Positions 1-32,417 of a stretch of 40,623 nucleotides of DNA are shown here, one piece after another. Position 1 is the first letter of the stretch. Every line of letters begins with the position of its first letter. Under the pieces are notes generated by a model. The model was not told the origin of the DNA. It did no database searches and saw only the letters and a program-made list of their open reading frames with translations. Position numbers and translations under genes: made by a program. Origin of the DNA: Aquificota bacterium (lineage in GTDB: Bacteria > Thermosulfidibacterota > Thermosulfidibacteria > Thermosulfidibacterales > B14-G1); NCBI GenBank assembly GCA_015486015.1, contig WFSL01000026.1, positions 1-40,623 of the forward strand. The letters run 5' to 3'.

Positions 1-8
1 AACATATA

Positions 9-404
9 TCAAGCAAACGTGATATGATTCCGTTCCGTTAGCTGCGGTTCAAATCTTTCGCACCCGTAAAGCATGCCACATATGCCGGATGCTAAGTCAC
101 AAATGCCAAAGGAATCGTTTAGAGGGTGCCAGTGTGAGCAATGAAGGCATGATCCTTTTTCCCTTTCCCTAACCAGCCGGGTTATCTCTCCTTTGTAGGG
201 CTCGGCCTCTTTCAGGAGAGGAGGGATTAGCTCTCTCCACTCGGGCCTTCGGGGTTTGATGGAGAGGTGGCCGTCATCGGCCATCTCTACCAAGGCAAGG
301 GTGTCAAGGGCATGGAGGTAGCGATCAGGTGGGGGAAGGGCCTTCTCCATTTGGGATATGGTGTGTTCACTCTCTCCGATGGCTCTCAAGGCCTTCCTTA
401 CCAT
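9..404 (-). CDS. Hypothetical protein with C-terminal cysteine cluster, integrative element
   Basis: The 131-residue product has no family I can name. The first 80 residues are mainly helical and charged. The C-terminal third holds CLHCSHWHP, then GICDLASGICGMLYGC and ERFEP, which gives five closely spaced cysteines and suggests a small metal-binding (zinc-ribbon-like) domain. Its ATG at 404 overlaps the stop of the upstream DUF3987 gene by seven bases (ATGGTAA), so the two are probably translationally coupled and work together. Proteins with this kind of cysteine tail often sit behind DUF3987-type genes in mobile elements; that is recollection, not proof. The gene is complete: its stop lies just inside the left edge of the window. 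Confidence 0.6.
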   Translation of the reverse strand: MVRKALRAIGESEHTISQMEKALPPPDRYLHALDTLALVEMADDGHLSIKPRRPEWRELIPPLLKEAEPYKGEITRLVREREKGSCLHCSHWHPLNDSFGICDLASGICGMLYGCERFEPQLTERNHITFA

Positions 405-2494
405 CTGAACCCCTCTTCTCCCTCTTCTTCACTGGCAGGGGGGTGGGGAGGGTGAGGCCCGGCTTCCTCCCCGCTATCGTCGGTGGCGACTCCCCCCATA
501 AGGGACCCATTAGAATCGTCCGCTTTGTCCGCATTGTCCGTATCCCTTGTTTTTAAGTAACTTACGTCCGCTTCTTCGTCCGCCGCTTGTCCGCTTCGTC
601 CGCCATCCTGACTATCCTGGGGCGGACAAGGCGGATTAGGAGCGGATAAAGAATTGCTTGTAAATTCCTTATTTTGTTGGAGTACGGAGAAAGCGGAGAA
701 GGCGGACAACTTTTTAAGGAGTGTAGAAGTAACGATAAGACAGGAGTTATTCCTCAAGTTTGAGTCGTAACGGGTTTTTTGGATCACTAAGTCAAGGCCA
801 AGCTGAGTTTTGAGGTCTTTAATAGCTTGCACGATCTGTCTTGACTTCAACCGAAGCTCCGGCAGTGTCCGGGCGTTATAAGCGTCCCGAATATATGCGA
901 TAGGTAAGCGACCAGCCTTGATTTTTCCCCTTAGAGAGAGGATGGCCTCTACAAGGTCTTTGCCCCCACCTTTTAGCTGCGGCTGATTTCCATAAAGCTC
1001 AACCACACATCGGGCTTGGCCCAGGTAAAAGCGAGCCAGGGATATAGCCTTTCTTATGGTCTCAACCTGGACAACCGGTGTGGGCCCTTGGTCTTTTGCA
1101 ATGGCTTCCAAGGTGTGGATAAGCCCCGCAAGCCTAACGGTGTATGTTACAGTTTTGGGTTTAAAGACGGCCAATTTGTCGGGTAGATAAGGGAGGACCT
1201 TATTTAGGTCTGCGTCGAAGGCCCGGAGTTCAAGCTGGGCTTCTTTGGAGAAGATGGCTTTCACGTTTTCCAGCTTTGTTAGCTTGTCAATGAAGCATTC
1301 CCACTCATTCTGGTTTTCCTCACTCCATGGCACCAGGCTCAGCGGGGGCGGTGGGGTTTGAGTGACGAAGAAAAGAAATCTGGGGACAAGCCCGTTATCA
1401 TAGTTTTCCTGGGTGAACAGGGCTGTCAAAACTTTGGGCTGAACACCCCCCACAATACCCAGCGAGGGCTTATCGATAAAGACGGAATCTCTGCCAATTC
1501 GGTCTGCCTTAACTGGATGGCCCGAGAAAATGGATAACATATGTTCCAGGTCACTTCCTCGGTGCGCTTTGTATTGTCCGAGTCCCCGGAGAAAACCCGA
1601 AAGTTCATCAGCTTCAAGAATTAAGCCGAGAGGAGCCTTGGACAAAACCACCACAATCTTTTCCACTGTGGCATCCTGGAGGTAGAAGCTGGTCAGCCTC
1701 GGCTTGGGGCCTCTTTCTTCGGCCTGGGTGTTTTTCCACTCTTCCAAGGCCCTTTCGTATTCGTCCCAGGCCTGTTTTTGCTTTTTGTGGATAGGAGCCA
1801 TGAGGGCTTCCAGGAGGGGTGTGCTTCCCCAGCCTGGTGGTTTTACGAAAACGGTCCACAAAGCCAGGTGTTCCTCCCACCCATACTTGGGGGAGACCAC
1901 CACCCTCCTCCCTATAACACCACCCAGGACACCCAAGCCCAGGGTCGCCACGGCTTCCTCCGGGACCCCGAGGGATCGGGTAAGCTCCTTCCATAGGTTG
2001 ACAAGGCGCTGGGGGAGGGCTCCCCAGGGGAAGGGGACAACTGGGATTAAATTGTGTGGGTCTGGGAGCTCGTTTTCTTCTGGCTCCTGGGAGCAGGCCT
2101 TCTCCTTCAAGACGGCCTCAAAAACTTCTATGATTTTCTGTGGGCTAGCCTCCTCTAACCATAGTGAGAGTAATGCATAATCTGAGTTCGCCTCCTCAAG
2201 TATCTCCTTGCTACCCACTTCAATTACAGGGATCCCCTCCTTTTCGGCCCATCCCAGAAGGGCCTTTCTCTCGGCTTCCAAGGATCCCCATGTCTCCCCA
2301 TTTTGTGGTTGCACATCTAGGATCACAGATGGATTCAGGTCTTGGGCACACTTCAGGCCCTGAAAGATGTGCCAGGGCCCCCACAATCGGCCGTTCTCTT
2401 TGACAAGATCACCCGGCCAATTTTTTGGCAGGATGGCACCAAGGGATTCGAAGGAGCAAACAACCAGGAATGGGCCTTTATTCGCCACCGACAT
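398..2494 (-). CDS. DUF3987-type (YfjI-like) replication/primase-helicase protein of a mobile element
   Basis: The 698-residue product matches the DUF3987 family, proteins of prophages and integrative elements that resemble the helicase part of primase-helicases. From about residue 160 there is the family pattern: a PFPWGALPQRL entry, a nucleotide-binding loop KPPGWGSTPLLEAL, a Walker B-like LILEADELSGFL, a GHPVKADRIGRDS segment and a GLVPRFLFF arginine-finger-like segment. The Walker A loop reads GWGSTP where GxGKSP or GxGKTP is expected, so the catalytic lysine is missing. The first 150 residues are not recognised; a degenerate TOPRIM fold is possible. The last 100 residues are low-complexity and acidic. 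It lies 10 bp downstream of the HTH gene in the same direction and overlaps the next gene. Likely role: replication or maintenance of the element. Confidence 0.75.
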   Translation of the reverse strand: MSVANKGPFLVVCSFESLGAILPKNWPGDLVKENGRLWGPWHIFQGLKCAQDLNPSVILDVQPQNGETWGSLEAERKALLGWAEKEGIPVIEVGSKEILEEANSDYALLSLWLEEASPQKIIEVFEAVLKEKACSQEPEENELPDPHNLIPVVPFPWGALPQRLVNLWKELTRSLGVPEEAVATLGLGVLGGVIGRRVVVSPKYGWEEHLALWTVFVKPPGWGSTPLLEALMAPIHKKQKQAWDEYERALEEWKNTQAEERGPKPRLTSFYLQDATVEKIVVVLSKAPLGLILEADELSGFLRGLGQYKAHRGSDLEHMLSIFSGHPVKADRIGRDSVFIDKPSLGIVGGVQPKVLTALFTQENYDNGLVPRFLFFVTQTPPPPLSLVPWSEENQNEWECFIDKLTKLENVKAIFSKEAQLELRAFDADLNKVLPYLPDKLAVFKPKTVTYTVRLAGLIHTLEAIAKDQGPTPVVQVETIRKAISLARFYLGQARCVVELYGNQPQLKGGGKDLVEAILSLRGKIKAGRLPIAYIRDAYNARTLPELRLKSRQIVQAIKDLKTQLGLDLVIQKTRYDSNLRNNSCLIVTSTLLKKLSAFSAFSVLQQNKEFTSNSLSAPNPPCPPQDSQDGGRSGQAADEEADVSYLKTRDTDNADKADDSNGSLMGGVATDDSGEEAGPHPPHPPASEEEGEEGFRW

Positions 2495-2504
2495 CTCTCG
2501 ATTC

Positions 2505-2702
2505 CTACTTTGATATTGAAGGGGTTCCGCCTTTGGCTTTTATGGCTTCCAAAACTTCCTCGGGATCAAAGCGGAGAGATTTGCCTAGTTTGTAACCGGG
2601 GATCCGGCCACGGTAGTATTGTAAGCGCACCCAAGTGGTGCCCATCCCAAGGAGACGAGCCATTTCCTTTGCATCCACCATTCTTCTCTCAAACTTGTTC
2701 AT
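2505..2702 (-). CDS. Small HTH (excisionase/MerR-like) DNA-binding protein
   Basis: The 65-residue product is a helix-turn-helix protein of the excisionase (HTH_17) kind. MVDAKEMARLLGMGTTWVRLQYYRGRIPGYKLGKSLRFDPEEVLEAIK is the full domain, split here: the recognition helix lies in GTTWVRLQYYRG and the wing in IPGYKLGKSLRF, followed by the typical DPEEVLEAI. An AAAGGAGG ribosome-binding site sits directly upstream. It is the first gene of the leftward operon with the DUF3987 gene and is divergent from the integrase operon. It may act as excisionase, as repressor of the divergent promoters, or both; the 16-bp inverted repeat at 2725-2740 is the obvious candidate site. Family assignment is firm, exact role is inference. 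Confidence 0.75.
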   Translation of the reverse strand: MNKFERRMVDAKEMARLLGMGTTWVRLQYYRGRIPGYKLGKSLRFDPEEVLEAIKAKGGTPSISK

Positions 2703-2724
2703 GTCAATTTCCTCCTTTTAACTG

Positions 2725-2740
2725 TTATGTCTTGACATAA
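2725..2740. promoter_or_regulatory. Candidate operator: 16-bp inverted repeat in the divergent control region
   Basis: TTATGTC and GACATAA form a perfect 7-bp inverted repeat separated by TT. It lies between the divergent HTH/DUF3987 and integrase operons and covers the -35 hexamer of the rightward promoter. A dimeric regulator, perhaps the adjacent HTH protein, bound here would block that promoter. Symmetry and position are seen directly; the regulator is inferred. Confidence 0.55.
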
Positions 2741-2760
2741 ACTAGTTCTGGCATTACGAT
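2732..2760 (+). promoter_or_regulatory. Sigma70-type promoter of the integrase operon
   Basis: TTGACA (2732-2737), a 17-bp spacer and TACGAT (2755-2760) precede the rightward gene starting at 2791. The -35 box forms part of the inverted repeat at 2725-2740, which implies repression by a protein bound there. Confidence 0.55.
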
Positions 2761-2790
2761 TATCCAGTAGAGACAGAATGGAGAATTTTG

Positions 2791-3693
2791 ATGTTATCGT
2801 TACGCATTAAGGACAAACTCCCGCCCAGAGCCTTAGAAGGGCTGGCTTTCCTATTGAGCTTGCCAAGTAGGGCCCCCCTGCAACTGAAGGAGGGGCCCCT
2901 ATCAGACACCTGGACTCTACGGGGTGAGTTTCTGGTGCCTAAATGGCCTATACGGGATGAGGGTTTGACAGAGGCTTACTTCAGGAGGGTGAAGAGAGAG
3001 GTGGAGAGATTGGCCCGTTATGTAGGCGAGGCTTTGCTTGGGGCTGATATAGTGCTGGATACCTACTATAACTACCCCGGCCCTTCAGCCCAGAGCTTCA
3101 GGATAAGGGTGGCAGTAGGTAGAAGGGAGTTGATAGAGAGGAGACGGGTGTTGAAGCATATGTTTGATCCCCTCTATCGCCTGAAACCCTCTCTCTTCCG
3201 TGAAGACCTTGAGTTTTATCTGATCCCGGACCTTCGCATGTTAGACGCCTCAAAGCTGGAGGAGATACCAGAGTGGAGGCGACTGAAGGAGGCATTGATA
3301 AAGAGTGGGTGTATTGACAACTCTTACCGTTTGACGGTGCCCCGCTTTGAAACCCTGGAGAGAGAGATCAATAGGGCTCTGTCGCCCCTTGAGGTTAGGA
3401 AGTGCGTTGTATGCGGGAAGAGACTTACAAAGCGTCGAAGAACCAAGAGGCTATGTTCCTCTCCCTGTAGGCAAAAGAGAGCACGTGTGAAGAAGAGGTT
3501 GGAAGGGCTATTGGAAGGGCTAGGGATATTGCCCGGAACCGAGCTCACAGAGGAGAAGCTTTCAGAGATTGTGCGCCAAATGAGGAAGGAGGAGAAAAGG
3601 CGAGCAAGCTACACTGATAGGTTTGGGGTAGAACCCAGGCCGGTAGCTAACTGGAGGATATTAATCCGAGATATTTTGGAAGGGGGTAAGTGA
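2791..3693 (+). CDS. Hypothetical protein with CxxC...CxxxC zinc finger, co-transcribed with integrase
   Basis: The 300-residue product is not recognised as a named family. The first 190 residues are a mixed alpha/beta region with many arginines. Near residues 205-226 lies CVVCG, then a basic stretch, then CSSPC followed by RQKRARVKKR; four cysteines in this spacing resemble the zinc finger of CGNR-type proteins and point to nucleic-acid binding. The ATG at 2791 is preferred over the in-frame TTG at 2788 because GGAG lies seven bases upstream of it. The stop overlaps the integrase start (TGATG), so the two genes form one operon under the promoter at 2732-2760. It could be a directionality or regulatory partner of the integrase; there is no direct evidence of function. 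Confidence 0.65.
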   Translation: MLSLRIKDKLPPRALEGLAFLLSLPSRAPLQLKEGPLSDTWTLRGEFLVPKWPIRDEGLTEAYFRRVKREVERLARYVGEALLGADIVLDTYYNYPGPSAQSFRIRVAVGRRELIERRRVLKHMFDPLYRLKPSLFREDLEFYLIPDLRMLDASKLEEIPEWRRLKEALIKSGCIDNSYRLTVPRFETLEREINRALSPLEVRKCVVCGKRLTKRRRTKRLCSSPCRQKRARVKKRLEGLLEGLGILPGTELTEEKLSEIVRQMRKEEKRRASYTDRFGVEPRPVANWRILIRDILEGGK

Positions 3694-4790
3694 TGGCACG
3701 GGTATTTAAGCGTGGCAGGGATTGGTGGATTGATTTTTTAGATGAGGAGGGCCGGCGTCACCGGAAAAAGATCGGTCCCAATTACCGGGTGGCCCAGGAT
3801 GTTCTCCACGACATTCTGGCAAAGGTGGCAAAGGCTGAATACCTGGGGGTGGTGGAGGAGCGGAAAATTGGCTTCACTGATTTTTGCAGGGAATACCTGG
3901 AGAGATACGCCAGAACCCGCCTTTCCCCCAGGTCTTATGAGAGGGAGGAGGGGATCATCAGGAAACACTTTATCCCCTTCTTCAAGGGCTACCTGAAGGC
4001 CATCACCAGGTCTAAGATCGAGGCTTACATGGCCCAGCGCCTGGAAGGGGGTGCCTCACCTACCACTGTGGCCCACGAGTTTAGCCGACTTCGCCACATG
4101 CTCAATTGGGCCGTGGGGCAAGGCTACCTGAAGAGGAGCCCTGCCAAAGGGGTAAAGCCACCTAAGCCTGAACCTGGCCGGCTCCGCTATCTTACCGCCG
4201 AGGAGCTGGCCCGGCTGATGGAGGCCTTAGAACCCTCCTCCCTGATGGAGAACCCTTACAACAAGGGAGACAAGGTGAGCGACCTGGTGAGGGGCTATCT
4301 CAAGCCTCTGGTGATCCTGGCCATCAATACGGGTTGCCGGTTAGGAGAGCTTCTCTCTTTGGAGTGGAAGGACGTTAACCTGAGGGAGAGGTTCATCACC
4401 TTGGAGCACACAAAGAACAATGAGAGGCGCATTGTCCCTTTGAACCAGGAGGCTTATGAGGCCATCAAGGGCCTGCCCAGGAGGATAGACACCGAAAGGC
4501 TCTTTCCCTTTACCCGTCACCAGGTCCATGGTGCCTTTTACAGGGCCGTGAGGAGGGCTGGGATCAAAGATTTTCGCTTTCACGACTTGAGGCATACCTT
4601 CGCTTCTTATCTGGCAATGAGCGGGGCAAATATGAGGACTATCCAGGAGCTTCTGGGCCACAAGGATATGAGAATGACCCTTCGATATTCCCACCTTTCA
4701 CCTGCCCACCTGAAGGAGGCGGTCAATAATTTGAAACTCCCTGGCGAAGATTCTGAGTTGGCACCTATGTGGCACCAGAGAGAATCTTGA
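3693..4790 (+). CDS. Tyrosine recombinase (phage-type integrase)
   Basis: The 365-residue product is a site-specific recombinase that cuts and joins DNA through a tyrosine. It has an N-terminal arm-binding region, a SAM-like core-binding domain (about residues 58-150, with SPTTVAHEFSRLRHMLNWAV) and a catalytic domain. The catalytic residues are present: R216 (TGCRLGE), K241, H297 and R300 (FHDLRHTF), H323 (LLGH) and Y332 (LRYSH). The ATG at 3693 in TGATG is chosen over the GTG at 3690 because the AGGGGG ribosome-binding site is better spaced. The gene ends 32 bp before the 3' end of tRNA-Glu, the usual arrangement for an element that integrates into a tRNA gene. It looks intact and probably mobilises the element to its left. 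Confidence 0.93.
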   Translation: MARVFKRGRDWWIDFLDEEGRRHRKKIGPNYRVAQDVLHDILAKVAKAEYLGVVEERKIGFTDFCREYLERYARTRLSPRSYEREEGIIRKHFIPFFKGYLKAITRSKIEAYMAQRLEGGASPTTVAHEFSRLRHMLNWAVGQGYLKRSPAKGVKPPKPEPGRLRYLTAEELARLMEALEPSSLMENPYNKGDKVSDLVRGYLKPLVILAINTGCRLGELLSLEWKDVNLRERFITLEHTKNNERRIVPLNQEAYEAIKGLPRRIDTERLFPFTRHQVHGAFYRAVRRAGIKDFRFHDLRHTFASYLAMSGANMRTIQELLGHKDMRMTLRYSHLSPAHLKEAVNNLKLPGEDSELAPMWHQRES

Positions 4791-4822
4791 AATCGGCATG
4801 TCTCGTAAGTGCCTAAAAAAAT

Positions 4823-4845
4823 TGGCGGTCCCAAGGGGATTTGAA
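4823..4845. other. Probable chromosomal attachment site (att) at the 3' end of tRNA-Glu
   Basis: The integrase gene ends next to this 3' part of tRNA-Glu (acceptor and T arm). Tyrosine recombinases encoded beside a tRNA usually recombine within that tRNA, and the 3' part is restored by the element. No second copy of this stretch is visible between 1 and 4800, so the partner site should lie left of the window. The placement is inference from context; the exact core is unknown. Confidence 0.4.
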
Positions 4846-4899
4846 CCCCTGTCGCCGACGTGAGAGGCCGGTGTCCTAACCGGGCTAGACGATGGGACC
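4823..4899 (-). tRNA. tRNA-Glu (anticodon CTC)
   Basis: Read on the minus strand, the sequence folds as a full cloverleaf: acceptor stem GGTCCCA paired with TGGGACC, D arm with GTCTAG, anticodon stem CCGGC/GTCGG around CTCTCAC (anticodon CTC), and T arm with GGTTCAAATCC. The CCA end is encoded. It follows tRNA-Gln by three bases and is probably cut from the same transcript. It is the likely target of the neighbouring integrase. Confidence 0.95.
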
Positions 4900-4902
4900 G
4901 CC

Positions 4903-4977
4903 TGGCTGGGAAGGGAGGACTCGAACCTCCATTAGCGGATCCAGAGTCCGCCGTCCTGCCAATTAGACGACTTCCCA
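4903..4977 (-). tRNA. tRNA-Gln (anticodon CTG)
   Basis: On the minus strand the acceptor stem TGGGAAG pairs with CTTCCCA. The D arm contains GTCTAATTGGCAGGAC, the anticodon loop holds CTG within GGACTCTGGATCC, the T arm contains GGTTCGAGTCC, and CCA is encoded. It stands directly upstream of tRNA-Glu and downstream of a good promoter at 4990-5018. Confidence 0.95.
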
Positions 4978-4989
4978 ATAACAAAACAA

Positions 4990-5018
4990 ATGATACCTTC
5001 AACTTTACTTCCCGTCAA
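4990..5018 (-). promoter_or_regulatory. Promoter of the tRNA-Gln/tRNA-Glu transcript
   Basis: On the minus strand TTGACG (5018-5013), a 17-bp spacer and TATCAT (4995-4990) lie 13 bp before the 5' end of mature tRNA-Gln. This is a near-consensus sigma70 promoter for the two-tRNA unit. Confidence 0.6.
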
Positions 5019-5046
5019 TACTTCACATCCTTTGCTCCTTCTCCAG

Positions 5047-5075
5047 TTGTGAGCAATGAGAAAGGGGGTTAATAT
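5047..5075 (+). promoter_or_regulatory. Probable promoter of rtcB
   Basis: TTGTGA (5047-5052), a 17-bp spacer and TAATAT (5070-5075) precede rtcB. The predicted start of transcription is about 5082, just before the AGGGGGG ribosome-binding site, which gives a very short leader. Confidence 0.45.
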
Positions 5076-5092
5076 TTTCTTAGGGGGGTGAG

Positions 5093-6538
5093 ATGACAAC
5101 GCTGAAGAAAATAGATAGCTACCGCTGGATGGTGCCTCAAGACTACAAGCCCGGTATGAGGGTTCCAGGCATCATTTATGCAAAAGAATCTATGATAAAG
5201 GCCATAGAGAAGGACCAATCCGTGGAGCAAGTGGCCAATGCTGCTACCCTCCCTGGCATCATCAAGGCCTCTCTGGCCATGCCAGACATCCACTACGGCT
5301 ACGGCCTGCCTATTGGCGGTGTGGTGGCTACAGATATCTCTAAAGGGGGAGTGATCACCCCTGGGGGGGTAGGCTTCGACATCAATTGCGGGGTGAGGCT
5401 ATTACGTACGGACCTTACCCTTCAAGATGTGGAGGGCCGAATAGAGGGGCTTATAGATGCCTTATTCTCTACAGTGCCCACAGGGGTAGGCTCTAAGGGT
5501 CCCCTAAGGATCAAAGGAACGCAGTATAGGGAGGTCCTGCGTAAAGGAGCGGCTTGGGCCGTAGAGCAGGGTTATGGTTGGCCTGAAGATCTGGAGAACA
5601 CTGAGTCTCAAGGCTGCCTTCCCGGAGCCGATCCATCTCTGGTAAGCAGCAAGGCCCAGGAGAGGGGGAAAGACCAACTGGGGACCCTGGGATCGGGGAA
5701 TCACTTTTTGGAGATCCAGGTGGTTCGGCAGGTCCTCAATGAGCCATTGGCCTCTGTTATGGGCTTAGAAGAAGGCCAGATCACCATCATGATCCACTCA
5801 GGCTCTCGAGGCTTTGGACACCAGGTGTGCACCGACTTCCTCAAGGTGATGGAACGTGCCCTGCAGAAGTACCAGATTCAGGTCCCCGACCGTCAGTTGG
5901 CCTGCGCCCCATACGATTCCCAGGAGGGGCAGGACTATCTGGGCGCCATGGCGTGTGCTGCCAACTATGCATGGGCCAATCGTCAGTGCCTGGCCCATTG
6001 GGCTCGTCAGGCTTTCTCCAAGACCTTCGGCAAAAGTGCTCAAGAGCTAAAAATCGAACAAGTCTATGACGTTGCCCACAACATCGTCAAGATAGAGGAG
6101 CACATCGTGGATGGGGAGAAGTACAAGCTGGCTGTCCACCGTAAAGGGGCAACCCGGGCCTTTCCACCTGGGCATTCCGAACTTCCTGCCCATTATCGAG
6201 AGGTGGGGCAGCCTGTCATTATTCCTGGAGATATGGGAAGAGCGTCTTACGTCCTGGTAGGTACCCATCGGGCCATGGAGGAAACCTTCGGCTCCACCTG
6301 CCACGGGGCGGGCAGGATCCTTTCCCGCCAGGCAGCCAAAAGGGCCCTAAAGGGCAGGTCCATTCAGGAGGAGATTAATAAGTATGGCATCTATGCCCGC
6401 GCATCCAGCAAGGCCACCTTGGTGGAAGAGGTCCCGATGGCCTATAAGGACATAGACGATGTGGTGGAGGTAGTCCATAAGGCGGGCATCGCCCAGTTGG
6501 TGGTGAGACTCCAACCCCTGGGTGTAATCAAAGGTTGA
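5093..6538 (+). CDS. rtcB: RNA ligase RtcB (3'-phosphate/5'-hydroxyl RNA ligase)
   Basis: The 481-residue product is a GTP- and manganese-dependent ligase that joins RNA ends with 2',3'-cyclic phosphate or 3'-phosphate to 5'-hydroxyl ends, used in tRNA splicing in archaea and RNA repair in bacteria. Family motifs are complete: GGVGFDINCGVRLLRTDL, GTLGSGNHFLEIQ, HSGSRGFGHQVC, HRKGATRAFPPG and CHGAGR. The histidine of that last motif is residue 404, the guanylylated residue. Length is as in archaeal and long bacterial RtcB. The start has a strong AGGGGGGTGAG site. There is no archease gene beside it. It converges with the lipoprotein gene and overlaps it by 11 bp. The position next to tRNA genes fits RNA repair but may be chance. 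Confidence 0.97.
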   Translation: MTTLKKIDSYRWMVPQDYKPGMRVPGIIYAKESMIKAIEKDQSVEQVANAATLPGIIKASLAMPDIHYGYGLPIGGVVATDISKGGVITPGGVGFDINCGVRLLRTDLTLQDVEGRIEGLIDALFSTVPTGVGSKGPLRIKGTQYREVLRKGAAWAVEQGYGWPEDLENTESQGCLPGADPSLVSSKAQERGKDQLGTLGSGNHFLEIQVVRQVLNEPLASVMGLEEGQITIMIHSGSRGFGHQVCTDFLKVMERALQKYQIQVPDRQLACAPYDSQEGQDYLGAMACAANYAWANRQCLAHWARQAFSKTFGKSAQELKIEQVYDVAHNIVKIEEHIVDGEKYKLAVHRKGATRAFPPGHSELPAHYREVGQPVIIPGDMGRASYVLVGTHRAMEETFGSTCHGAGRILSRQAAKRALKGRSIQEEINKYGIYARASSKATLVEEVPMAYKDIDDVVEVVHKAGIAQLVVRLQPLGVIKG

Positions 6539-17859: not shown

Positions 17860-17954
17860 GGAAGTGGGTGGTGGCTGGTGCTGCCCCCGGACTTCAAATC
17901 CGGTGAGCCTCCCAAAAGGGGGCTGGTGGGTTCGATTCCCACCCACTTCCGCCA
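17860..17954 (+). tRNA. selC: tRNA-Sec (selenocysteine, anticodon TCA)
   Basis: The 95-base gene folds as a selenocysteine tRNA. It has a long acceptor arm (GGAAGTGG paired with CCACTTCC), an anticodon stem GCCCCCGGACTTCAAATCCGG with anticodon TCA, and an extended variable arm built from GAGCCTCCC and GGGGGCT. The T arm contains GGTTCGATTCC, and GCCA is encoded at the 3' end. The length and the long variable arm exclude a suppressor or ordinary Ser tRNA. Its presence means that the organism should read UGA as selenocysteine in some genes (SelA, SelB and SelD lie elsewhere). No selenoprotein candidate was found in this window. Confidence 0.95.
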
Positions 17955-27932: not shown

Positions 27933-28099
27933 CAAGACGCTTAACCTGACTGCTACTCCGCTTCTCGTCAGTTATTTCTCGCCAGTTACCTGAGGCAGCT
28001 CCAGGGTGTGGTGCTCCCCCTCCCTCCAACTCCAACTTGTCTTGTTCCTGGACCACTTTTCAGAGGGAGCAGGACAGATTAGTAAAGGTTGGATGCAAA

Positions 28100-28804
28100 T
28101 TATAAAAAGCCAAGAAAGTGGAGTAACACACCAATTATAATTAAGCCTACCCAAAAAAGGAGGCCGTGAATATATGATGTAATAAGAAGTACGGCTAGGC
28201 TTTTTCTGTCTATCAAAGGGGAATTGAATGGTGACAGCTTTCCATAAAACAAATAAGAATCCTTACCAGTATCTTCCACGACATAAATACCTATTGGAAT
28301 AATTGGGACGAAGAGAATGCAGAGCCAGGCCATCATTATATCTACATTGAATACTCTGCTCCACAACTTATTTTGATGTTCAATTGTCACTCTACGTTTA
28401 AGTGGCAAAAAACCTATAAGCATAATACCAACACCATTATAGGTTCGAAGTGGAGGATACCGCTTTGGAACAGAGATATTATAAAGTTTCCGAAATTCTC
28501 CTAAGAGGAGATACTGGACTTCTTCAGGCTGTTCAGAAACGGTTATAGGTTCTTCATCCTGCTTTACTTCTTTCCCTCTTTCTTCTTCTGATTCTGAGAT
28601 AAAAGACTTAACTTTGTCATACGTCCTCCGTTTCTCAGGATCGGAAAGAATTTGATAAGCTTCAGTTATCTCTATAAACTTGCTCTGAGCCATTTTATCT
28701 GGATTAACATCAGGATGGTATTTCTTAGCTAATGCTCGGTAAGCTTTCCTTATTTCTTCTTGAGTAGCGTTTGGGGTAACTCCAAGGATTTTGTAATAAT
28801 CCAT
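28100..28804 (-). CDS. Membrane-anchored J-domain (DnaJ-like) protein
   Basis: The 234-residue product has an N-terminal J domain (residues 1-66, [25 protein letters not shown] at 30-32, [14 protein letters not shown]), which stimulates DnaK-type ATPases. An acidic linker of about 25 residues follows, then a region with two or three membrane segments ([48 protein letters not shown]). It lacks the Gly/Phe, zinc and client-binding parts of DnaJ, so it probably recruits DnaK to a membrane site. It is the third gene after two small membrane proteins, with a 28-bp gap. The operon is more AT-rich than the housekeeping genes and lies in the accessory region. Confidence 0.85.
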
Positions 28805-28832
28805 ATTAACACTCAGTCTACTTTTAATGAAC

Positions 28833-29288
28833 TTATCTGTATTTAGATCCCGATCTAGCCAAAACTACAAAGAAAGGAATTGCCAAAACTATGGGCCCTA
28901 GAAAACTTATAAGTGCTGATAATACTATTGCATAGTACCATTCCATGCTGTAGTGCATAGTCAATATCATTGAGGCAATGAAGAAAATACATCCTAGTTT
29001 AATTAACGAAGTAGAAACAGAAAATAATTCCTCATTTGAAGGCTTAAAATTAACACTATCAAACGCTTCTTTGTAGCTTGGTTGTCCTTCCTTAAGCTCT
29101 CTAAAACTTTTCTCTTTGTGTAAAGAAGCTGCAATAATACCAAGCAGGAAGTCCATTACCAGCATTGAACCGCCTATAATCCAAGCTCTTTGTAGAAAAT
29201 AATAAACAGCAAGGGCGACAAATAGTAACCAGAGTGGCTTTAACACCATCCAATCAAACTTTGCACGCATGTTAGAACTTTTGTTCAT
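28833..29288 (-). CDS. Small membrane protein, unknown
   Basis: The 151-residue product has four predicted membrane segments ([73 protein letters not shown]) in two pairs, with a cytosolic-looking loop of about 45 residues between them. No family is recognised. It starts within the stop of the preceding gene (ATGA) and is followed by the J-domain gene, so the three products may form one membrane assembly. Confidence 0.7.
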
Positions 29289-29611
29289 TTCCTTACTAAA
29301 CTAAGTTCCTTCTCTCTTTTTTCCTTCTCCCATTTTGAAGCGATAAAAACCCCCACTATGACACTGAAAATCACTGCAGCCCATTCTACTAATATCTGAG
29401 TGAAACTTATTCTTACACCATAGGCTAGGGAAGAACGTTTAGGTTGAGGAGGAGAAAAAAAGAAATGATATCCAGCGGGCGTAGTCGAGTGTGTTCCTCT
29501 GAGACTAAAGGTGTACTCCCAAGGTGGAAAGGCACAAATCAGCAAAAATAATGCTAATCCTACAACAAGGACCTTAGTCACTGGTGATAGTGACTCCCAC
29601 CATTTACCCAT
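29285..29611 (-). CDS. Small membrane protein, unknown
   Basis: The 108-residue product has two predicted membrane segments (VLVVGLALFLLICAFPPW near residue 15 and IIVEWAAVIFSVIVGVFIA-like near residue 75), with a proline- and serine-rich loop of about 40 residues probably outside the membrane. The C-terminus is charged (KWEKEKREKE). No family is recognised. It is the first gene of the membrane/J-domain operon, with an AGGTGAGCG purine-rich site before the ATG. Confidence 0.65.
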   Translation of the reverse strand: MGKWWESLSPVTKVLVVGLALFLLICAFPPWEYTFSLRGTHSTTPAGYHFFFSPPQPKRSSLAYGVRISFTQILVEWAAVIFSVIVGVFIASKWEKEKREKELSLVRK

Positions 29612-29810
29612 TTTTCGCTCACCTGCTGAATTATCATTCGTGAGAAAGCCCCTGACCTAATGGAAAGCCGGACTTACGTTTTTAGTTAGGCATATTAACC
29701 CCACCATGTTGAACCCTCACTTTGACAAAGCCTAAAGGAATCTCTAGGCAGGCTTTATCCCATACACAGCCCATAGGTCAAGTCCCATTTCCCCTGAAAA
29801 GTCAGCTCCG

Positions 29811-29842
29811 GGTCTGCCATTGAATTTTATGGAAATGACAAT
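29811..29842. repeat. Dispersed direct repeat, copy 1
   Basis: This 32-base stretch (GGTCTGCCATTGAATT, then TGGAAATGACA) recurs at 34817-34849 with about four differences in the same orientation. The two copies lie about 5 kb apart, on either side of most of the toxin-antitoxin genes. Confidence 0.6.
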
Positions 29843-29945
29843 CATGAATCCAGGGGATAAGGTATGAATCTGGCAGGGGTGTGGCTATCGTGGCTGGAGG
29901 CTCCATTTGCTTGATCTAAACTAACACCCACCGACTTGATGAGGC

Positions 29946-29973
29946 TTGTGGTCTGGATCATAGGCTTTATAAT
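29946..29973 (+). promoter_or_regulatory. Promoter of the DUF433/DUF5615 pair
   Basis: TTGTGG (29946-29951), a 16-bp spacer and TATAAT (29968-29973) precede the gene at 29991, whose GGGAGG ribosome-binding site lies just after the predicted start of transcription. Confidence 0.45.
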
Positions 29974-29990
29974 AGACTGCGGGAGGTGCC

Positions 29991-30218
29991 ATGAGGAAAC
30001 TCACCAGAATAACAGTTGACCCCCATAGGATGGGGGGAGTTCCCTGCATAAGGGATACAAGAATCCCCGTCGCTACAGTTGTAGCCATGGTAGCGGACGG
30101 AATGTCCACAAGGGAAATTCTGGATGCCTACCCCGATCTTGAAGAGGAAGACATCAGAGAGGCCCTCCTTTTTGCCGCCGAGGCAGTAAGGGAGAGGGAA
30201 ATTCCGGTTACGGCGTGA
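29991..30218 (+). CDS. DUF433-family antitoxin
   Basis: The 75-residue product is a typical DUF433 protein: RITVDPHRMGGVPCIRDTRIPVATVVAMVADGMSTREILDAYPDL is the whole domain, with the GGxPxIxxTRIPV core. DUF433 proteins are HTH-like and pair with DUF5615 PIN-like proteins as antitoxins. A GGGAGG site precedes the ATG. The stop overlaps the GTG start of the next gene (GTGA), as expected for a toxin-antitoxin pair. Confidence 0.87.
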   Translation: MRKLTRITVDPHRMGGVPCIRDTRIPVATVVAMVADGMSTREILDAYPDLEEEDIREALLFAAEAVREREIPVTA

Positions 30219-30583
30219 GATTCCTGGTAGACAACGCTCTTTCTCCTATATTTTGCAAGGAGCTAAGCAAGGCTGGATACAACTCCGTGCATGTCAGGGA
30301 CGTGGGTCTACACAAAGCAAAGGATTCTGTTATCTTTGATTACGCCGCCAAAGAAGGTAGAGTAATTATCTCTGCAGACACTGATTTTGGAACAATCCTT
30401 GCTTCAAGGGGTAGTTCTAAGCCATCGGTAGTACTCTTTAGATCCTTGCACCCCAGGAAACCCACCGAACAGGCAAAGCTACTAATAAAGATTCTGCCTG
30501 AGATAAAAGAGGATCTTTTAAAAGGAAGCGTTGTGGTTATTGAGGATACGAGGATCAGGATAAGGCAGTTACCCATCCTTTAG
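30215..30583 (+). CDS. DUF5615 PIN-like toxin
   Basis: The 122-residue product is a DUF5615 protein, a short PIN-like nuclease. The acidic residues of the active site are visible in RFLVDNALSP (first Asp), HVRDVGLHKAKDSVIFDYA and VIISADTDFGTIL. It is coupled to the DUF433 gene by GTGA. PIN proteins cut RNA with metal ions; the target is unknown. The gene looks complete. Confidence 0.87.
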   Translation: MRFLVDNALSPIFCKELSKAGYNSVHVRDVGLHKAKDSVIFDYAAKEGRVIISADTDFGTILASRGSSKPSVVLFRSLHPRKPTEQAKLLIKILPEIKEDLLKGSVVVIEDTRIRIRQLPIL

Positions 30584-30807
30584 GGGCAACCTCTGGGGTC
30601 AGAGACTGTATTGACTGTCAACCTTAATTCCCTGGTACACAATATACCTTCCCACTCTTGTAGATCGCGTGGGCAATGAGCAAAAGCTTCATCGCTGCTG
30701 CGACCTTAATTAGCCCCCTCTGGCAGCTCTACTTTTGATCTGCAACAGCCTCCCAGGGAGTCCAGATCTTGCCCAATAACCGCTGCTCTCTGTCCATTAC
30801 CCTCTCC

Positions 30808-30836
30808 TTGACCCCCACTCCCACCGCCCTTATATT
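30808..30836 (+). promoter_or_regulatory. Promoter giving a leaderless MNT transcript
   Basis: TTGACC (30808-30813), a 17-bp spacer and TATATT (30831-30836) end seven bases before ATG 30844, so transcription should start at or one base before the ATG and no ribosome-binding site can be present. The same arrangement is copied at 33731-33759. Confidence 0.6.
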
Positions 30837-30843
30837 CCCAATC

Positions 30844-31179
30844 ATGAAGCAGTTAGAGCTCAGCAAGGAGGAAAAACTTGCCCTCGAGAAACTCAAAGGC
30901 TTCTTAACAGAGAACTCCGGAACTGCAAGGATCCTTATCTTCGGCTCCAAAGCAAAGGGCTATTCCGACGATGAGTCAGACCTGGATGTGCTGATTCTTC
31001 TGCCTCACAAAGTGGATAGGTTTACCAGAAAACGCGTCATACACGCCGTGTTCGACATCAACCTTGAACACGGAACCAACATAAGCTCCATAATCTACTC
31101 TCTGGAAGACTGGGAGCAAGGCCCCCTATCCATTCTGCCCTTCAGAGAAACAGTAGAGAAAGAAGGCGTGGTCATATGA
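30844..31179 (+). CDS. MNT-type minimal nucleotidyltransferase (antitoxin)
   Basis: The 111-residue product has the polymerase-beta-like nucleotidyltransferase core with GS at 34-35 and SDLD at 45-48 (FGSKAKGYSDDESDLDVLIL), then LEHGTNISSIIYS. MNT proteins partner with HEPN toxins and can inactivate them by nucleotide addition. ATG 30844 is used: the longer frame from 30769 runs through the promoter, and the paralogue at 33767 conserves this ATG and its upstream bases. Its stop overlaps an ATG that opens a HEPN-like frame broken after 24 residues, so this antitoxin may have lost its toxin. Confidence 0.85.
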   Translation: MKQLELSKEEKLALEKLKGFLTENSGTARILIFGSKAKGYSDDESDLDVLILLPHKVDRFTRKRVIHAVFDINLEHGTNISSIIYSLEDWEQGPLSILPFRETVEKEGVVI

Positions 31180-31250
31180 AGAACGACCGACTGAAAGGCC
31201 AAATCATCGAATACTGGCGAAAGAATCCTGAAAGAAGCCATTGGGGATAA
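31176..31250 (+). pseudogene. HEPN gene remnant after MNT
   Basis: An ATG overlapping the MNT stop (ATGA) opens a frame of 24 residues (MKNDRLKGQIIEYW, then RKNPERSHWG) that ends at TAA 31248. The position and start are those of a HEPN toxin gene, but the body of the domain is missing. The next bases are the left end of repeat copy B, as if the gene had been cut by insertion or deletion there. The HEPN identity rests on context, since too little sequence is left. Confidence 0.5.
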
Positions 31251-31255
31251 GGAGT

Positions 31256-31367
31256 TTTACTATAACAGCGTGATATTCCAGCAGATCTTTAGGGCACCTT
31301 CTTGACAAGGGGCTCCCAAATATGAAACATACCTACTCAGATCGCAGTAGTATATGATGCGTTATGC
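31256..31367. repeat. Copy B of the repeat before hicAB; attC-like imperfect palindrome
   Basis: The left end is identical to 27384-27404. The two arms pair: ATAAC (31262-31266) with GTTAT (31361-31365), GC with GC, ATAT with ATAT, GATCT (31284-31288) with AGATC (31339-31343), and TAGG (31290-31293) with CCTA (31332-31335). An A at 31283 is unpaired next to the GATCT block. The right end GTTATGC is one base off GTTRRRY. A length of about 108 bp falls in the range of long attC sites. Confidence 0.4.
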
Positions 31368-31394
31368 CAAAAATGTAAATGGGGTATAAAGTAA

Positions 31395-31595
31395 GTGAAA
31401 TTTAGCGAATTGGTGAGACTTCTTGAGAAGAATGGATTCAAAATTGTAAAGGAAAAAGGTTCGGTAAGATACTATGGAAAGCCCGAATGGGATAAATTAA
31501 TCCGTATTGACTATCATGGTTCAAAGGAAGTGCCAAAAGGCACATGTCATGCTATACTGAAAGCAGCAGGTATAGAGAAAAATAAAGGGGGGTAA
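31395..31595 (+). CDS. HicA-like protein lacking the catalytic histidine
   Basis: The 66-residue product aligns along its whole length with HicA toxins: KFSELVRLLEKNGFKIVKEKGS, then IRIDYHGSKEVPKGTCHAILKAAGI. The position of the catalytic histidine (GSH) is GSV, with valine at residue 24, while the intact HicA at 27747 has H24. It may be inactive, or belong to a variant that acts without this histidine. The GTG start has no strong ribosome-binding site. It is followed one base later by hicB, toxin first, the opposite order to the other pair. Confidence 0.8.
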   Translation: MKFSELVRLLEKNGFKIVKEKGSVRYYGKPEWDKLIRIDYHGSKEVPKGTCHAILKAAGIEKNKGG

Positions 31596-31596
31596 A

Positions 31597-31854
31597 ATGA
31601 TTGATTTAGAATATTCGCTGATTATCGAGGCAACGGAAGAACCTGACTATTTTGGATTTTATTCGCCAGACTTAGAAGGTTTTACTGGAATAGGACATTC
31701 AATAGAAGATTGTATGTATAAAGCAAAATGGGGGATGAAAGAACATGTAAGGCTATTAAAAGAAAGAGGACTACCTATTCCTCCTCGGAATCCGGATCCC
31801 AAAGTAATTATTCAGAACGAAGAAAAGGTGAAGAATAAACGGGCAGTAGCATAG
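31597..31854 (+). CDS. HicB-family antitoxin
   Basis: The 85-residue product is a HicB-type antitoxin: YSLIIEATEEPDYFGFYSPDLEGFTGIGHSIEDCMYKAKWGMKEHV is the HicB fold, followed by a proline-rich IPPRNPDP linker and a short charged tail. GGGGGG lies before the ATG. It follows the HicA-like gene directly. The stop is 22 bp before an attC-like site, so the pair has the form of a gene cassette. Confidence 0.83.
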   Translation: MIDLEYSLIIEATEEPDYFGFYSPDLEGFTGIGHSIEDCMYKAKWGMKEHVRLLKERGLPIPPRNPDPKVIIQNEEKVKNKRAVA

Positions 31855-31876
31855 CTCGTGAATAAACATAAGAACG

Positions 31877-31933
31877 ACATAACAACCCATTCCAGCGGAC
31901 GGCTAACGCCGCCGCTGAGCTTGGCCGTTAGGC
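31877..31933. repeat. attC-like recombination site 1
   Basis: The 57-bp palindrome begins with ACATAAC (R''-like) and ends with GTTAGGC, an exact GTTRRRY (R'). Inside, CAGCGG (31893-31898) pairs with CCGCTG (31912-31917) and CGGC (31900-31903) with GCCG (31908-31911) around the loop TAAC; A 31899 is left unpaired. Unpaired bases in an imperfect stem are the mark of integron attC sites. The same CAGCGG-plus-unpaired-A core recurs in site 2. Confidence 0.55.
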
Positions 31934-31942
31934 GCCGGGGTG

Positions 31943-31970
31943 TTCTGATTTTTCAGGCATATGCTAAAAT
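31943..31970 (+). promoter_or_regulatory. Possible promoter of the PIN gene
   Basis: TAAAAT (31965-31970) ends six bases before ATG 31977, with a weak -35 TTCTGA (31943-31948) 16 bp upstream. If used, the mRNA would begin at the ATG. The promoter lies inside the cassette, just after the attC-like site. Confidence 0.35.
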
Positions 31971-31976
31971 GGGAAC

Positions 31977-32417
31977 ATGAGAGTCTACCTGGACATGTGT
32001 GCCATTCAAAGGCCATTGGGTACGCCCACTCATTTGTGTATCACTTTGGAGGCTGAAGCGGTACTTGGAATCCTTGCTTTGTGTGAGCAAGGGGAAATCA
32101 AGGTGGTGTCTTCGGGTGCTCTGCTTTACGAAACGCGTCGGAACCCTCATCCTTTGCGTCGTGAGTATGCATTGGCCGTACTTGCCCAGGCGAAAGAGCA
32201 TTTGAAGATATCGCGTGAAGTGGAGGAACGGGCCAAATGGCTGGAAAGTCAAGGGATAAAGCCCTTGGATGCGTTGCACTTGGCCTTTGCGGGAGTAAGA
32301 AGCGTGGACTATTTCTGTACGGTGGATGATAAACTGCTGAAGAGAGCACGGCGGTTGAAGGGAGTGTCGGTAAAAGTGGTGACACCGATTGAATTGGTGG
32401 AGGAGATGGAGCGATGA
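31977..32417 (+). CDS. PIN-domain toxin (VapC-like)
   Basis: The 146-residue product is a PIN-domain RNase. Acidic residues of the active site occur in RVYLDMCAIQRP (first Asp), in the glutamate of SSGALLYETRR, in KPLDALHLAFA and in YFCTVDDKLLKRA. The length and the DMCAIQRP start fit the PIN proteins often found with a short downstream partner. There is no ribosome-binding site before the ATG. Its stop overlaps the ATG of the frameshifted partner (ATGA). Confidence 0.85.
   Translation: MRVYLDMCAIQRPLGTPTHLCITLEAEAVLGILALCEQGEIKVVSSGALLYETRRNPHPLRREYALAVLAQAKEHLKISREVEERAKWLESQGIKPLDALHLAFAGVRSVDYFCTVDDKLLKRARRLKGVSVKVVTPIELVEEMER

Follow-up and report, generated by a model that had tools for sequence, protein, structure and literature searches.

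What kind of element is inserted in the transfer RNA (tRNA) gene for glutamate near the start of this DNA, and how might it move? The window, that is, the whole 40,623-bp stretch analysed here, starts at base 1 of contig C26 in the source genome (G000; 1.62 Mb, 43 contigs; assembly GCA_015486015.1), and its first 4,866 bp hold a compact gene cluster that runs into tRNA-Glu(CTC). We regard positions 1–4866 as probably the integrase-bearing end of a small tRNA-Glu(CTC) element of a phage-satellite-like or hitch-hiking kind. An earlier note on this DNA had suggested a satellite- or island-type element with its own replication protein, and this suggestion gained support from a sibling element in the same genome, three empty sites, an att copy in the same-genus genome G001 and a gene set of the type found in PICMI satellites. 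Because contig C26 begins at window base 1, the element is cut and its left end is missing. The contig edge lies 4.8 kb from tRNA-Glu, the cargo that the earlier note placed left of the window would lie beyond this edge, and no contig with an overlapping end that would extend the window to the left was found among the own-genome contigs.

Gene content of the tRNA-Glu element

The visible part of the element consists of ORF1 (open reading frame 1), a DUF3987 gene and an HTH_17 (helix-turn-helix) gene, all on the minus strand, followed by a zinc-finger gene and an integrase gene on the plus strand and by tRNA-Glu(CTC) on the minus strand. The order DUF3987–HTH / zinc finger–integrase–tRNA-Glu had been read from the sequence alone and was confirmed by ORF, tRNA and Pfam calls. 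The tyrosine integrase (3690..4790, plus strand, 366 aa) is intact (PF00589, E = 4.4e-35; phrog_1, 3e-82). Its motif residues were located at R217, K242, H298-x-x-R301, H324 and Y333, positions that are catalytic in this family. Against solved structures, the integrase matched ordinary tyrosine recombinases and the DUF3987 protein returned nothing useful.

The zinc-finger gene (2788..3693, plus strand, 301 aa, likely start ATG 2791) overlaps the start of the integrase gene by 4 nt (GTGA, 3690–3693, with a GTG start at 3690) or by 1 nt (ATG 3693). Its finger, C-x2-C-x12-C-x3-C, occupies residues 206–227; it was not named by the Pfam scan, and phrog_1271 matched across it (2.6e-06). Full-length relatives of this protein were limited to itself in 60 genomes and in the nine-genome phylum set, with none among plasmids or phages and one finger-only match in viral contigs. 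A single-sequence structure prediction of the protein (mean predicted local distance difference test score, pLDDT, 45.9) was set aside.

The divergently transcribed HTH_17 protein (2505..2702, minus strand, 65 aa) is predicted to be of excisionase type, with an AlpA/Xis role. This included matches to PF12728 (3.5e-07; 30.8 bits against a cut-off of 27), to the excisionase family phrog_1840 (4.6e-05) and to TIGR01764 (1.7e-05, under that model's cut-off). A weak PADLOC match to mad1 was put down to general HTH similarity. To the left of the HTH gene lies the DUF3987 protein (398..2494, minus strand, 698 aa), a putative replicative helicase (PF13148, 1.4e-45, 156.5 bits; phrog_2373 DNA helicase, 3.6e-34); DUF3987 ATPases are predicted replicative helicases of mobile elements in the portion of PMC5862659 drawn on here. 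Neither the DUF3987 nor the HTH protein had a match in viral contigs. ORF1 (9..404, minus strand, 131 aa) has a Cys-rich C-terminus, overlaps the DUF3987 stop and is, as far as visible, the final gene of the leftward operon, the contig edge lying 8 bp past it; it had no match in Pfam and PHROG scans. The same scans of the window proteins detected no structural phage genes in the visible 4.8 kb. The earlier observation to that effect holds for this length, which says little alone, and the sibling element provides the better test.

A sibling element in tRNA-Thr(CGT) of the same genome

The phylum-level searches covered nine genomes of the source phylum, and the integrase search among them returned a broken paralogue on another contig of the source genome (C35). 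Starting at its first base, this contig encodes the N-terminus of a large replication protein, followed by an HTH_17 gene (1.6e-07), a zinc-finger protein (234 aa; CGNR zinc finger, 1.2e-05), a frameshifted integrase and tRNA-Thr(CGT). The 3' half of tRNA-Thr is repeated on a further contig of the same genome (C41). The ends of C41 and C35 share an exact 90-bp overlap, which is assembly evidence and not proof of adjacency, and in the joined unit two exact 49-bp cores enclose 7,056 bp. The join also restores a continuous replication ORF of 775 aa, whose only match, to PF19263 (E = 0.016), was below the cut-off. The order of the sibling is that of the window, namely replication protein–HTH / zinc finger–int–tRNA. 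The scan of the sibling proteins, which took in only some of the small ORFs, recognised no structural phage family, and neither its zinc-finger protein nor its replication protein had a match in viral contigs. In the related genomes G001, G003 and G004 the tRNA-Thr site was without insertion and had the same ubiE gene on one flank, and G002 had its own att copy there.

By analogy with this sibling, the window element is probably about 7 kb in size. Several smaller observations concern the sibling and its surroundings. Its integrase (L127:1480-2632) is split by two frame changes, through mutation or assembly error. At its left end (L046:3415-3869), one small gene matches DUF4258 below threshold (E = 0.01) and stands beside a 72-aa gene without a match, and part of the DUF4258-like gene is also present in the G001 end. 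Another CGNR-like protein was found near an integrase and tRNA-Leu(TAA) on G001 contig C88 (L130:1489-4055), in a different arrangement.

att cores and arm-type repeats

The target gene, tRNA-Glu(CTC) (4823..4899, minus strand), is regenerated by the element. The 45-bp att core (4822..4866) runs between the 3' end of the tRNA and its anticodon loop and was defined by its exact match to G001 (L020, 1508–1552). In G001, the sequence between this copy of the tRNA-Glu 3' half and the contig end is not tRNA, and the full tRNA-Glu(CTC) gene had no match in the G001 assembly. Judged by its sequence, the G001 copy is the displaced fragment that a tRNA-Glu element should leave at its far end. A second copy of the tRNA-Glu 3' end, for which the earlier note had proposed a search to the left, was present in this same-genus genome and was not found in the source genome; the distance of about 60 kb named in that note reaches far past the 4.8 kb between tRNA-Glu and the contig edge. 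The tRNA-Gln/tRNA-Glu pair is also present in G002 and G003 (98% identity), with other sequence beyond it and, by eye, no integrase. The left flank in G001 matches contig C41 of the source genome and was considered as a possible left end of the window element; it was rejected, synteny being broken there and no tRNA-Glu fragment present.

A direct-repeat pair was present at every end examined. In the window it has the form TTGGCACC-TATG-TGGCACCA (4758..4777, plus strand), lies about 45 bp from the core and is a candidate arm-type integrase site. The pair in the window and G001 has the form TTGGCACC-TAT-n-TGGCACC, the G001 copy standing at the other end of its tRNA-Glu element. Among the loci compared, this window-type pair was matched only in copies of the window and G001 places, and the repeat was absent from viral contigs. 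The pair GGACACC-TATA-TGGACACC was found at the left end of the sibling, in G002 and in G006, with one base changed at the int end of the sibling. The distance from pair to core was 45–46 bp on the int side (window and sibling) and about 132–152 bp on the far side. The repeat pairs at the two ends resemble arm-type integrase sites. From the repeat onward, the inner left end of G001 is 91% identical to the left end of the sibling over 443 bp. Since these ends are so similar and yet belong to different tRNAs, the comparison suggests that integrase/att modules have been swapped between elements.

Candidate control and replication sites

The 88-bp region between the divergent genes had been described as holding a perfect 16-bp inverted repeat. 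This proved too strong, as the repeat (2725..2740, TTATGTC-TT-GACATAA) has 7-bp arms separated by a central 2 bp, which leaves 14 of its 16 bases paired. Its described overlap with a -35 element stood, the repeat including the TTGACA of a promoter-like match (TTGACA-17-TACGAT; 2732..2760, plus strand) found by a promoter-pattern scan and directed at the zinc-finger/integrase pair. Taken alone the promoter-like match is weak, because five such sites were found in window positions 1–5200 where 3.2 were expected. The inverted repeat occurs once in the window and has no counterpart in the sibling element; the window contains 13 inverted repeats of such quality (spacer ≤4). Because arms of at least 7 bp were reached in 2.9% (spacer ≤4) to 4.8% (spacer ≤8) of shuffled copies of the intergenic region, the repeat is suggestive at most, and we treat it as a weak operator candidate; binding by the HTH protein and the on/off switch raised in the earlier note are no more than possibilities.

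A second type of repeat lies in the 3' part of the replication genes. In the window, an iteron-like cluster of GTCCGC (518..707) occurs within the 3' part of the DUF3987 gene in both orientations, with copies at 518, 527, 566, 578, 589 and 598 on the plus strand and at 622 and 702 on the minus strand; this equates to 8 of the 15 GTCCGC copies in the whole window. An AT-rich stretch (636–690, 64% AT) sits between the last two copies, leaving one copy beyond it. The sibling has 11 copies of ATGACG, of which 10 fall in a stretch of about 200 bp at the equivalent place of the replication gene. The top 7-mer count was matched in one of 300 shuffles for the window and for the sibling each, and the adjacent segments tested were unremarkable. 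The cluster of L131, a related locus described below, is weaker (TGTAGCA at 429, 486, 546 and 555; 23 of 300 shuffles). A 9-bp spacing is common to all three clusters, which are candidate replication origins.

Integrase relatives in other phyla

Relatives of the integrase in the species genomes were taken as the best 80 of 168 matches, for which 78 loci could be assessed for a tRNA. At 32 of these 78, a tRNA gene starts between -80 and +250 bp of the int stop, and in 23 of the 32 it faces the integrase; in a smaller listing, a tRNA was present at 16 of 19 loci. Part of the tRNA is duplicated within six loci, and the cores of L133, L135, L149 and L160 end at or span the anticodon loop. The closest integrase among the best 80 of 168 (51%) belongs to L131, a deltaproteobacterial metagenome-assembled genome from another phylum. 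The order there is replication protein, small gene and HTH / zinc finger, a 0.99-kb insertion, int and tRNA-Glu(TTC). The L131 replication protein shares 41% identity with that of the sibling over 506 aa. The zinc-finger protein of L131 is weakly similar to that of the sibling (1.3e-04), and similarity to that of the window was not significant (0.07).

Further variation was seen among these loci. The insertion in L131 (3851–4841), between the zinc-finger gene and int, has terminal inverted repeats. L135:2814-6180 is a tRNA-Pro element of about 3.3 kb with the same integrase family, carrying int and, by eye, AbiEi/AbiEii-like genes, and L149:787-2783 is a tRNA-Thr element of about 1.9 kb with a HigB/HigA-like pair (by eye) and a shortened int. 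At L132, L134, L135 and L140, the tRNA lies on the int strand and its 5' end overlaps the int 3' end; because of this overlap, the tRNA 5' half would be the part restored.

Comparison with known mobile elements

The closest described plan is that of the PICMI satellites, here as given in the portions of PMC10803314 consulted; the comparison was made by gene set, overlap and size, leaving gene orientations aside. The PICMI search model consists of an integrase (PF00589), AlpA (PF05930/PF12728), a primase (DUF3987/DUF5906) and Fis, and the window element has three of these four (PF00589, PF12728 and DUF3987). In 21 of 35 PICMI subfamilies a gene overlaps int by 1, 4 or 13 nt. The window zinc-finger gene overlaps likewise (4 or 1 nt), its equivalence to this integrase-overlapping gene (iolg) being one of position only. 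PICMIs measure about 6–7 kb between direct repeats, compared with 7,056 bp for the sibling, and capsid-remodelling genes were recognised in neither. PICMI115 (6,110 bp) carries int, iolg, alpA, up1, prim and up2, and its excision requires int, iolg and alpA; AlpA drives excision and leaves satellite gene expression unchanged. The differences are a target in the tRNA-Glu(CTC) anticodon loop instead of fis, a host from another phylum instead of Vibrionaceae, two such elements in one genome and a zinc finger in the int-overlapping gene. The PICMI authors report complete PICMIs in Vibrio only and int-overlapping families that are all of unknown function (PMC10803314). As site, host and number per genome differ, we do not call the window element a PICMI, although by analogy it probably works like one.

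Two other classes share part of this plan, as far as the portions of the sources used here describe them. PICI elements (PMC6092414) have in common with it int, a regulator, replication genes, a specific att site and, close to the replication gene, an AT-rich part with repeats around it. Their two iteron sets flank an AT-rich region 3' of that gene, whereas the iteron-like repeats here lie inside its 3' part with one window copy past the AT-rich stretch, and no packaging or capsid gene was recognised here in the proteins scanned (window and sibling). Anticodon-centred tRNA islands found by Islander (PMC4383910) share the tyrosine integrase, the regenerated tRNA and the anticodon-centred core. 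Their displaced 3' fragment is present in the sibling and in G001, the window's own not being found in its own genome; the very small size and own helicase are differences. In the literature, no title was found that describes a tRNA-targeting, zinc-finger-bearing PICMI-like family; 'integrase overlapping gene' turned up in the PICMI paper only, and CGNR zinc finger with integrase gave nothing relevant by title.

Proposed mode of action and alternative explanations

As a small satellite-like element, the locus would work as follows. Int would recombine the core in the tRNA anticodon loop, positioned by the paired arm sites at each end, and the tRNA gene would stay whole through the 3' half that the element carries. 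The zinc-finger protein and Int would be made from one promoter, and the former is probably an accessory factor of integration or excision, because it takes the iolg position of PICMI satellites. The divergent HTH protein would act as excisionase; as it would share an operon with the DUF3987 helicase, activation of the leftward operon would both excise and replicate the element, replication probably starting at the iteron cluster that the helicase gene contains. Spread may depend on a helper phage.

Several results weigh against this reading. The window element is cut at base 1, so its size, left end and cargo are not visible. A second att copy was absent from its own genome, both by a 33-base pattern (≤3 mismatches) and by a 65-base search (E ≤10). 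The window DUF3987 protein and the sibling replication protein had no significant blastp similarity, the two zinc-finger proteins are unlike outside the finger, and the frameshifted sibling integrase may be dead. Among the best 80 of 168 integrase loci, the full layout occurred in L131 only. The repeat counts could partly reflect repetitive coding sequence, neither a helper nor a cos/pac site was identified, and the scanned window and sibling proteins gave no packaging gene.

This last result, together with the replication, HTH and Int functions and the iteron-like cluster, would also suit an integrative plasmid or a mobilizable element with a phage-independent route of spread, for example a conjugative helper or natural transformation. 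We consider this rather unlikely, as no relaxase or transfer gene was found among the scanned window and sibling proteins and the gene set fits the PICMI search model. The cut at base 1 leaves room for an ordinary larger prophage or genomic island with its structural or cargo genes left of the contig edge; 45 loci of the integrase family lie in viral-collection contigs, and phages carry DUF3987 proteins (phrog_2373). However, the whole of the same-order sibling fits into 7,056 bp, no structural family was recognised in its scanned proteins, and L131 shares the order, which makes this explanation unlikely. An integrase remnant left to decay next to a tRNA gene, the element itself being dead, would match the frameshifts of the sibling integrase. 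This is very improbable, since in the window all five ORFs are intact, the integrase retains its motif residues and neither the arm nor the core sites are missing.

With the satellite-like reading preferred, a wider proposal can be made, if only tentatively. PICMI-plan elements may extend far beyond Vibrionaceae, into at least two other phyla, as a satellite family that targets tRNA anticodons, in which the overlapping gene would encode a CGNR-type zinc-finger DNA-binding partner of Int, the origin would lie in the 3' part of the replication gene, and integrase and att modules would be swapped. If so, minimal satellites would be older and more widespread than described, occurring in a sparsely sampled phylum and a deltaproteobacterial genome, and the int-overlapping gene would gain a testable identity as the gene for a zinc-finger protein that partners the integrase. 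With both of its ends, its empty sites and its paired arm repeats, the sibling allows a direct test of the att architecture.

Other features of the window

Beyond the element, positions 28001–32000 have a lower G+C content (38–49%) and few long ORFs, and the Rfam scan gave no family there. A selenocysteine tRNA gene lies at 17860–17954.

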